Shown: in pieces, positions 30,942-33,009 of the stretch
How positions within the stretch are numbered: position 1 is the stretch's first letter
Layout of the letters: each line of letters begins with the position of its first letter
From: an uncultured Bacilli bacterium
GTDB taxonomy: Bacteria; Bacillota_I; Bacilli_A; RF39; UBA660
Direction: 5' to 3'
DNA: 36,771 nt
Assembly: GCA_944331835.1 (NCBI GenBank)
Contig: CALVIU010000009.1
Coordinates: 1 to 36,771, forward strand
Translations under genes and position numbers: made by a program
Notes under the pieces: model-generated
Told to the model about the DNA's origin: nothing
Database searches by the model: none
What the model saw: the letters and a program-made list of their open reading frames with translations, nothing else

Positions 30942-31589
30942 ATGGAACTTTTTACAGTTTTATTTAGAACAATATTCTTTTACTTCTTTGTTCTTCTTGC
31001 ATATCGTATAATGGGTAAAAGAGAAATAGGACAACTGGGTGTAATAGATTTAATTGTTTCAATACTTATTGCAGAATTAGTGGCAATCTCTATCGAAGAA
31101 ACAGAAAGTCCTATATATTTAACTATTGTACCAATTGCTATGTTAGTTATACTTGAAATTGTTTTTGCCTTTATTTCAATTAAATCAAGAAGATTTAGAA
31201 CGGTATTTGATGGTAAACCATCTTTAATTATTTGCAATGGTAAAATAAATTATAAAGAAATGATTAAACAAAGATATTCATTAGATGATTTACTTATTAG
31301 TTTAAGGCAGCAAGGTATAAAAGATCTTGAAACAATAGAATATGCTTTTTTAGAACCAAATGGTCAATTGTCGGTGTTTAAATATAATATATTTAAATTA
31401 AAAAGTAATTATCCAATGGCTTTAATATTAGATGGTTTTGTTCAAAAGGAAGCTTTAAAACATATAAAGAAAAGTGAAGAGTGGTTAATAGATGAACTGG
31501 CAGATAAAAACTTAACTCCCAAAGATATCTTCTATGCTTTTTATAAGAAAAATAAAATATTTATTATAAAGAAAACAGAAGTAAAGTAA
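30942..31589 (+). CDS. DUF421 membrane protein (YetF/YrbG family)
   Basis: The 215-residue protein has three N-terminal membrane helices. MGKREIGQLGVIDLIVSILI is a hallmark of DUF421. A C-terminal soluble domain follows, with GKINYKEMIKQRYSLDDLLI, SLRQQGI and the FLEPNGQLSVF strand. Spore-former relatives such as SpoVAF-associated YetF and YrbG have the same layout; function is poorly known. SD GGTGAT. It is divergent from the TIGR04086 gene with 71 bases between. The first sRNA promoter begins at the base after its stop. Confidence 0.85.
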   Translation: MELFTVLFRTIFFYFFVLLAYRIMGKREIGQLGVIDLIVSILIAELVAISIEETESPIYLTIVPIAMLVILEIVFAFISIKSRRFRTVFDGKPSLIICNGKINYKEMIKQRYSLDDLLISLRQQGIKDLETIEYAFLEPNGQLSVFKYNIFKLKSNYPMALILDGFVQKEALKHIKKSEEWLIDELADKNLTPKDIFYAFYKKNKIFIIKKTEVK

Positions 31590-31618
31590 TTGACATTAAA
31601 TGAACTTTATAGTATATT
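31590..31618 (+). promoter_or_regulatory. Promoter of small RNA A
   Basis: TTGACA (31590-31595) and TATATT (31613-31618) with a 17-base spacer. It is nearly identical to the promoter of RNA C at 31802-31830. Confidence 0.8.
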
Positions 31619-31623
31619 TTAGC

Positions 31624-31694
31624 AGAAAAGGAAATGGTTTTTTTTAAAATGAGAGACGCACAGTAGTGCTAGGTACTCTGACGTTTCCTTTTTG
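31624..31694 (+). ncRNA. Small hairpin RNA A (~70 nt)
   Basis: The closing stem is AAAAGGAAAT (31626-31635) with GTTTCCTTTT (31683-31692), ending in T-rich sequence that doubles as terminator. Inside, GCAC...GTGC forms a small hairpin. The segment after the closing stem starts GGTTT and the segment before its return starts CTCTGAC. RNA C has the same plan with different but paired bases. No ORF. Family unrecognised. Confidence 0.7.
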
Positions 31695-31702
31695 TTGATT
31701 TA

Positions 31703-31791
31703 GAAAAGAACTGGTTTCTCTTGCACGTTTAGAGCGTTTGTTTAAGGCTTGGCATTAAACGCAGTGACAGAAGTTCTTTTCATTTTTTTTT
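31703..31791 (+). ncRNA. Small hairpin RNA B (~85 nt)
   Basis: The closing stem is GAAAAGAACT (31703-31712) with AGTTCTTTTC (31772-31781), then A and nine T, a strong terminator. GGTTT follows the 5' arm and GTGACAG precedes the 3' arm, as in A and C. An inner GCGTTT/AAACGC hairpin replaces the A/C core. No promoter is seen directly upstream, so it may be transcribed by read-through of A. Confidence 0.6.
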
Positions 31792-31801
31792 GTAAAAGCA
31801 A

Positions 31802-31830
31802 TTGACATTAAATAAACTTTATAGTATATT
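31802..31830 (+). promoter_or_regulatory. Promoter of small RNA C
   Basis: TTGACA (31802-31807) and TATATT (31825-31830) with a 17-base spacer. Confidence 0.8.
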
Positions 31831-31836
31831 ATTTAT

Positions 31837-31906
31837 AGAAAAAGAAGCGGTTTTATTGAGGAGTGACGTACTTATAGTACCAGGTACTTTGACGCTTCTT
31901 TTTTTA
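31837..31906 (+). ncRNA. Small hairpin RNA C (~70 nt)
   Basis: The closing stem is AAAAAGAAGCG (31839-31849) with CGCTTCTTTTT (31893-31903), then more T. The core aligns with RNA A: GAGTGACGTAC against GAGAGACGCAC, then AGTACCAGGTACTTTGAC against AGTGCTAGGTACTCTGAC. The inner stem is GTAC/GTAC here and GCAC/GTGC in A, a compensatory change. Family unrecognised. Confidence 0.7.
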
Positions 31907-31941
31907 TCTTATAGGAAATTGCATTATTTAGTAAAAATCAA

Positions 31942-31970
31942 TTGACATACATACGTTTGTTTGTTATAAT
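31942..31970 (+). promoter_or_regulatory. Consensus promoter of the structured ncRNA (copy 2)
   Basis: Perfect TTGACA (31942-31947) and TATAAT (31965-31970) with a 17-base spacer. It is the strongest promoter in the window, suggesting abundant expression. Confidence 0.85.
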
Positions 31971-31976
31971 TGGTTT

Positions 31977-32166
31977 ATCAACTAAAGGGGGGGAATAGAA
32001 TATAGTTGAAATAATAAGAAAAAATATGTATTAATTGAGTGTTATAATAATGGAACATATAGTAGGGTGGCGACCATCCGAAACTGGTCTATGGAGAGTT
32101 CGAAGGACTCTGTGAAGTAGAAATGCCTTGTAGTGATGCAAGGATGCCAAACTTGTTTGGCTTTTG
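31977..32166 (+). ncRNA. Structured ncRNA (~190 nt), copy 2 of the element at 1-75
   Basis: The RNA runs from a consensus promoter to a terminator: GCCAAAC (32146-32152) with GTTTGGC (32155-32161), then TTTT. Visible elements are a run of seven G near 31987, a GGGTGG-CGA-CCATCC hairpin (32065-32079), ACCA/TGGT, AGTTC/GGACT and CCTTG/CAAGG stems. No convincing ORF is present. The 3' 50 bases match 1-49 closely. Size, promoter strength and structure fit an abundant Bacillota ncRNA such as raiA, but I cannot confirm that name by eye. Confidence 0.75.
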
Positions 32167-32169
32167 TTC

Positions 32170-33009
32170 TTACCTTGAAATGGTGATGTCATAAAAAATA
32201 TTATCTATTTTTCCAATTCTAATTATATATATAAATATTATGTTATCTATCTTTACTTTGCCTTGATAGCTGTTAAAGCCACTTTTAAATGTTTTGTTAT
32301 AATGTTTTAATGGTGAATAGTATTTTATAGTGGAATTTTCTAATAAATCTGATAAACTCGGAAGAATTCGAATTTTTTTGTTAAAGATTTCATGACTCAA
32401 TTTTTGGGAATTCGATCCCATAGTATATTCTTTTGCTGACAGTTTTATAAATTTGATTTTTTTATTATCTATTGGATCAATTAAATCTTTAAAATTGATA
32501 TTTCCATTTAAAATGTATTTATAGGCTTGTTTTCTTAATTCACTTCTTGTTATACCCTTAAATATATCTTTGCTATCTTCTATTTCCCAGTATCTTCCAT
32601 ATTTTTTATCATCGACTAATTTATAATTAACTTCGTTAGTTAATATAAATTTATTATTGAATATTAAATACATCCATAAATTTTTAAAGTTAGTAATAAA
32701 ATTATTATCACTAATAATTTTATTACTAAAAAGTAAACCTGCTATATCACAAATAAGTTCATCACTTATTTGATTATCAATAGCATTTACTTCTAATTCA
32801 TTAGAAATATAATTTATAAATAATTCTTTTAAATATTTTAAATCTAATAAATGAGTTAATTCATGTATTAGTATAAATGATATATTTTCTTTACTATCCT
32901 GATTAATTTTAATGGTTATTTCATTGTCATAAGAATAAATTAAACCATTAACGAAATAACCATTAAAATTAATATAATTTTCAAATATAATATTAATTGT
33001 TTTATTCAT
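32170..33009 (-). CDS. Putative zincin (HELTH) protein with phage-type nuclease-like C-terminus
   Basis: The 279-residue protein has a zincin-type motif H49-E50-L-T-H53-LLD after a beta-rich start, and downstream acidic residues in ISDELICDIAG that could give a third ligand. The C-terminal ~80 residues (KIRILPSLSDLLENSTIKYY ... YQGKVKIDNIIFIYIIRIG ... YDI) recall the barnase/EndoU/RelE-like (BECR) domains found in phage and mobile-element polyvalent proteins. That resemblance is weak and was read by eye. No signal peptide, so cytoplasmic. It has its own promoter and GGGGGT SD. Neighbouring genes are not phage-like, so it may be an isolated effector or toxin-like gene. Confidence 0.55.
   Translation of the reverse strand: MNKTINIIFENYINFNGYFVNGLIYSYDNEITIKINQDSKENISFILIHELTHLLDLKYLKELFINYISNELEVNAIDNQISDELICDIAGLLFSNKIISDNNFITNFKNLWMYLIFNNKFILTNEVNYKLVDDKKYGRYWEIEDSKDIFKGITRSELRKQAYKYILNGNINFKDLIDPIDNKKIKFIKLSAKEYTMGSNSQKLSHEIFNKKIRILPSLSDLLENSTIKYYSPLKHYNKTFKSGFNSYQGKVKIDNIIFIYIIRIGKIDNIFYDITISR

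Follow-up and report, generated by a model that had tools for sequence, protein, structure and literature searches.

In the convergent type I systems of Firmicutes, such as txpA/RatA and bsrG/SR4, an antisense RNA converges on the 3′ end of the toxin gene, and type I toxins are typically small hydrophobic peptides. Polymorphic toxins (CDI, Rhs and MuF) combine a constant N-terminus with an exchangeable tail and partner, and orphan immunity genes occur among them. In type III systems (ToxIN, CptIN, TenpIN and AbiQ) a small structured RNA is paired with an RNase-type protein, and the two are mutually specific. The accessible part of PMC4147584 describes the type III antitoxin RNA as short tandem repeats upstream of the toxin, in one operon and with a terminator between the two. 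The polyvalent proteins are treated in PMC5512222 (Iyer et al. 2017), whose accessible text presents their PBECR domains as predicted, phage-injected RNases and leaves their targets and control unexplained.

Here, we describe small structured RNAs encoded opposite genes of the latter kind, the PBECR and LPD domains in the accessible text of PMC5512222 being the protein half of the present system. Type III RNA antitoxins are the closest systems. The pairing of a structured RNA with a matching RNase-type protein (predicted as such here) is common to both; the differences concern the order of the genes, the strand, the structure of the RNA unit and the toxin domain. Instead of a tandem-repeat operon we find single units of 70–90 nt on the opposite strand, convergent or antisense to the tail and usually with their own promoter, and the protein domains are PBECR3 or LPD3. 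The antisense RNA converges on the 3′ end of the presumed toxin gene as in type I systems, but the partners are proteins of 280 to >2000 aa with PBECR3 or LPD3-type domains rather than small hydrophobic peptides, their tails are of a predicted nuclease type, and there are orphan RNAs without a target gene. Like polymorphic toxins, the loci have, as judged from sequence, a common N-terminus, differing putative toxin tails, a matching partner that is swapped along with the tail, and leftover orphan partners; the partner is an RNA here, whereas theirs is an immunity protein. In the accessible text of PMC5512222 the terms ‘antisense’ and ‘small RNA’ occur 0 times and no RNA partner is described, and such RNAs go unmentioned in the accessible parts of the journal literature on PBECR, MuF and RelE-type toxins (PMC5512222, PMC5576092, PMC4147584 and PMC11980606). 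Owing to this silence and to the differences from type III, we refer to the system as a probable new variant of RNA antitoxin.

An RNA array between convergent genes

The window, that is, the whole stretch of 36,771 nucleotides analysed from an uncultured Bacilli bacterium (contig CALVIU010000009.1), holds three hairpin RNAs, A–C, in a gene-free stretch, as a preliminary description had reported. A DUF421 gene, whose stop is at 31589, lies on one side of them and a minus-strand gene on the other, and the features are as follows:

31590–31618, plus strand: promoter of RNA A, read directly (TTGACA at 31590–31595, 17-nt spacer, TATATT at 31613–31618)
31624–31696, plus strand: RNA A, type AC; fold z −3.1; training member of the R1 model
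31702–31786, plus strand: RNA B, PBECR3-associated type (R2/R3 family), an orphan here; fold z −1.8
31802–31830, plus strand: promoter of RNA C, read directly (TTGACA at 31802–31807, 17-nt spacer, TATATT at 31825–31830)
31837–31906, plus strand: RNA C, type AC; fold z −3.6; the AC member closest to the LPD3-tailed gene
32050–32170, plus strand: dispersed high-copy structured repeat, outside the RNA families, between RNA C and the gene at 32170–33009
32170–33009, minus strand: convergent gene of 279 aa, presumed effector, with an N-terminal zincin-like domain (HELTH motif) and a C-terminal LPD3-like tail

Direct reading bears out the near-identical promoters of A and C, as well as the compensatory changes in the closing and inner stems and the common GGTTT and TGAC letters on which the preliminary description had based its case. 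By the z-scores above, A and C fold better than their shuffles and B less so. The promoter of RNA A is present in homologues, and the closing stem of this RNA, with its U run, is also an intrinsic terminator. RNA B lacks a promoter of its own where one would be expected (score 6, lower than its shuffles), and its pairing is the weakest among 23 RNAs of its type (14 of 20 pairs). A comparison with Rfam at gathering score gave 0 matches both in the window and in 11 related loci; the matches at a permissive threshold (miRNA, lncRNA and similar) were discarded as chance and point to no family.

RNA C lies ~260 nt past the stop of the convergent gene, with the repeat inserted between them. This repeat has 14 matches in the window's genome, is present in 15 of 59 genomes, in many cases at the end of a contig, and gives a sub-threshold match to RAGATH-18. 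The surroundings hold two further elements. At 31900–31920, TTATCTTATAGGAAATTG follows a terminator-like sequence, as it does at several places in this and related genomes, and may represent a repeat specific to the genus, for example an uptake signal. At 31943–32012 there is a TTGACA-17-TATAAT promoter plus leader (AACTAAAGGGGGG..TATAGTTGA), with similar copies on contigs C17 and C25 of G000 and a partial copy on C24.

Two RNA families and the tails they accompany

A DNA search of 58 other genomes gave true homologues (E ≤ 1e-7) in seven, which belong to the same genus (G002, G007, G012, G013, G019, G022 and G029). In the copies that were inspected, the promoter is of the kind seen in the window and the closing stem doubles as the terminator. 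The RNAs fall into two families, A and C together (type AC, alignment A1) and B apart from them (A3). Covariance-model searches, as the preliminary description had suggested, recovered homologues far beyond chance: among 241 genomes of the order, the AC model found RNAs in 4, with G255 representing a second genus, and the B model in 13, spread over 9 of 92 genera. The two models find different places. Hence, of the single selected RNA family that had been proposed, the selection, structure and covariation hold and the singleness does not.

Covariation is strongest for type B, for which 94.5% of cells pair in a structure-blind MAFFT alignment of 23 RNAs, compared with only 31–52% in slid controls. 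Fifteen of the 20 pairs change on both sides, giving 58 double-sided cells vs 16.3 in shuffles (reached by 0 of 500). For the eight AC sequences, 5 of 18 pairs change on both sides, a number that 3 of 500 shuffles reach. A TTKACN-17-TAnnnT-like promoter lies 6–10 nt upstream of 16 of the 23 B-type RNAs (hand count), and in L102, L105 and L107 it is located further upstream. Strong promoter-like sequences are also located within phage-type genes themselves.

The partner genes lie on the opposite strand, converge on the RNAs and share the HELTH N-terminus, followed by either an LPD3-like or a PBECR3 tail. AC-type RNAs adjoin LPD3-type genes in the window and in G002, and broken genes in G013, G029 and G255; homologues of RNA C stand beside LPD3-tailed genes in G002 and G029, and that of RNA A in G013 adjoins the remnant of one. 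B-type RNAs adjoin PBECR3 genes in G007, G012 and G019, the G007 copy being the closest relative of RNA B (91% identical). Overall, RNA type follows tail type by 5:0 against 0:19, so that tail and RNA change together on a constant N-terminus. This contradicts the earlier view that the RNAs are not tied to a downstream gene: each type goes with a particular nuclease-type tail, encoded just 3′ of the RNA on the opposite strand, and the array looks unlinked because its members are copies away from, or without, a partner gene.

The LPD3 assignment of the window gene is sub-threshold (PF18798, E 0.027, 15.1 bits against a Pfam cut-off of 27), and so is that of its 61% identical homologue in G002 (E 1.4e-5, 25.7 bits); the tail is alignable with the polyvalent-type proteins of L109 and L110. 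PBECR3 (PF18812) is matched over the cut-off in L009 (4e-10) and L015 (9e-13), and at E values of 4e-10 to 9e-26 in L142, L163, L151, L106, L087, L089, L085, L125 and L126. Its structure is predicted with confidence (pLDDT 94.7), and the best structural neighbour of the model is BrnT (Z 6.9, 2.1 Å, 73 residues), followed by a Salmonella toxin (6.5) and then by RelE, YoeB, HigB and CDI toxins. The predicted fold is thus RelE/BrnT-like, with modest single Z-scores and one fold class at the top of the list. Foldseek with the same model gave no match at E ≤ 1e-3, and a sequence search of the PDB returned nothing credible. The model of the window protein is too poor for a structure search (pLDDT 51.6), and profile comparison showed no relation between LPD3 and PBECR3; we therefore infer the nuclease nature of the LPD3 part.

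The association was also approached from the protein side. A search with a PBECR3 alignment alone gave 5 viral and 18 genome loci, and the B model matches 19 of these 23 (18 at E ≤ 2e-5 and L100 at 0.03), among which L090–L092 hold training sequences and L086, L097 and L098 are near-identical. The matches always lie on the strand opposite the PBECR3 gene and within ~20 nt of the domain end, and there is no comparable match elsewhere in 139 kb, only weak reverse-strand shadows of two of them. The four loci without a match are L087, L088, L089 and L106 (Hyphomicrobiales). When viral sequences were scanned again with an alignment of greater diversity, 11 PBECR3 loci emerged, some on already-found contigs, and by eye CGTTTCGGACGTT or a variant of it lies antisense and 3′ of the domain in all 11.

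Scored against control windows, a 16-base core in antisense beats every window in 13 of 23 non-training PBECR3 loci, including L106 on a Hyphomicrobiales contig and L177 of Rhizobium phage RHph_N28_2 (L171 and L174, also among the 13, were found by the IMG/VR motif scan as well). It is weak in four (L087, L088, L089 and L176, the last from Helicobacter) and absent in six (L121–L124, L128 and L129), these six being the loci without RNA among the nine of the Pfam PBECR3 search. Motifs picked by eye in L087–L089 do not beat the control windows and were dropped. A refitted model, R3, run with no filters, matches at the motif site in 8 of 21 of these loci, several of the matches being weak (L178, L126, L106, L167, L125, L171, L168 and L127). 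Scanning IMG/VR with a 15-base motif returned 35 stretches, mostly chance; clear PBECR3 cases are only L142, L151, L160 and L163, and the same tail occurs in L148 and L155. No PBECR3 was found in plasmids, and PBECR2 occurs in 1 of 245 genomes of the phylum, where its position coincides with L124.

For LPD3, two loci from the alignment search (L109 and L110) and seven from the Pfam model (L111–L117, in 6 of 296 genomes) were scored with a promoter-plus-stem detector. All nine have a promoter-like sequence followed by a hairpin RNA, antisense at the domain end (score ≥ 24), a score reached by 1 of 139 control ORF ends. Eight of the nine lie above all of their own control windows; at L114, 5 of 134 windows score equally high. 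The RNAs differ from AC in sequence, and AC model matches there are weak. A two-row alignment search of IMG/VR found no LPD3. PBECR4 loci have no antisense RNA at a score ≥ 22 (0 of 11), so the RNA is not a property of all such domains. At this score the detector finds 14 of 42 PBECR3 loci and 3 of 139 controls; because it is strict, the case for PBECR3 rests on the covariance model and the motif.

Orphan RNAs and longer arrays

A PBECR3 search of 15 genomes found the domain only in G007, G012 and G019. It was not found in the window's genome, and RNA B is for this reason called an orphan. B-type RNAs without a detectable PBECR3 occur in the window's genome and in G013, G016, G029, G079 (a weak match, E 0.002), G109, G127, G132 and G220, in drafts rated ~90–100% complete, in which partner genes may be absent from the assembly. 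Seven orphan B-type RNAs keep 127 of 137 pairs vs 305 of 320 in partnered RNAs. Longer arrays with AC, B-like and further hairpins are found in L052 (G012:C7) and L054 (G019:C3); among the diverse types of the former is hairpin type D (L052:3609–3691, minus strand).

The orphan of G016 lies beside an AbiEii toxin gene, a neighbourhood that recurs in G013 and G029; the loci with an orphan B-type RNA next to such a gene are L077 (Pfam E 1e-37 for AbiEii), L079 and L080. In L074 (G220:C56) a B-type RNA lies at the 3′ end of an ORF unlike PBECR3, as might follow from an exchange of the tail alone. In L154 and L157 from IMG/VR, the B-type motif lies within a CCGCCA/TGGCGG stem with no PBECR3 seen alongside, and these are possible orphan RNAs in phage-like contigs.

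Proposed antidotes and rival explanations

RNA families, covariation, position, promoters, tail–RNA pairing, orphan status in the drafts and the PBECR3 fold are all computed results. We infer transcription, nuclease activity, RNA–protein binding and a role of the RNA as antidote. The RNAs probably act as antitoxins, or immunity RNAs, against the nuclease-like tails that polyvalent effectors of phage type carry, with cassette exchange and orphan arrays. The tail would be a growth-inhibiting RNase delivered by phages (as the accessible text of PMC5512222 has it for PBECR) or by other elements. Each tail family would have an RNA family of its own, encoded on the other strand either across or just beyond the tail-coding end, usually with a dedicated promoter and with a final stem that doubles as terminator. 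Once folded, the RNA would neutralise the nuclease, most likely as a type III-like decoy that binds the domain, and so protect the producer. Tail and RNA would be exchanged as a single cassette, and RNAs left behind or captured would form orphan antidote arrays that could protect against the nucleases of other elements. More tentatively, though it could well hold, this may amount to RNA immunity against phage- or element-borne polymorphic nucleases, with at least two tail families that have coevolving, antisense-encoded RNA antidotes and a trans-acting orphan bank.

The main rival to an antidote role is type I-like cis-antisense repression, in which base pairing of the RNA to the effector mRNA at its 3′ end would block or destroy that message, and in which structure would matter solely for stability and pairing kinetics. 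The RNA lies opposite the effector 3′ end in nearly all partnered loci, with the geometry of the convergent type I systems of Firmicutes, and since in most loci it is antisense to the effector mRNA, mRNA pairing is equally possible there. However, such complementarity is possible in partnered loci with antisense overlap and not for orphans in genomes without a detected PBECR3, where the RNAs nevertheless keep their pairing. Compensatory changes maintain the helices, for which perfect cis-complementarity has no need, the loop motif is kept from Bacilli to a Rhizobium phage, and RNA C of the window stands well past the gene stop behind an inserted repeat. The orphans, the covariation and the insertion near RNA C argue against antisense repression and none of them is decisive; we regard it as unlikely. 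That the RNA is instead a natural substrate, cofactor or timing switch of an injected nuclease, for example an early RNA from the incoming phage genome that silences the nuclease or is cleaved as a signal, would suit both the predicted virion delivery of PBECR RNases (accessible text of PMC5512222) and the strong promoter-like sequences inside phage-type genes. It is compatible with an antidote function, as its phage-side use, but alone it does not account for chromosomal orphan arrays and is improbable as the whole explanation.

A closing stem with A and U runs would terminate transcription both ways, and the elements might thus serve the convergent genes merely as two-way terminators, the promoters being incidental and the RNA itself without function. 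Covarying inner helices, a conserved internal loop motif, the near-fixed promoter spacing and the match of RNA type to tail type all speak against this; we rejected bare terminators on the covariation of the B-type helices and consider them very improbable. Least credible of all is that the stretch is conserved for a peptide at the end of PBECR3 proteins (TSETNSG and similar), with the RNA signal as by-product. Among 28 loci the core is read in one frame in 17, but in another frame in 5 and past the stop codon in 6, and orphans have it without any PBECR3 reading frame. This frame test refuted the peptide; the motif, read in different frames or after the stop, is conserved as nucleotides.

For PBECR3 and LPD3 proteins, the odd conserved peptide (TSET or NVRN) after the domains is explained as the shadow of an RNA, and the work supplies RNA families that are missing from Rfam. 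If an RNA antidote does lie opposite each PBECR3 or LPD3 3′ end, the means by which the producer is protected can be tested directly, polymorphic effectors would join the targets of RNA antitoxins, and hosts would have a new form of protection in their orphan RNA arrays.
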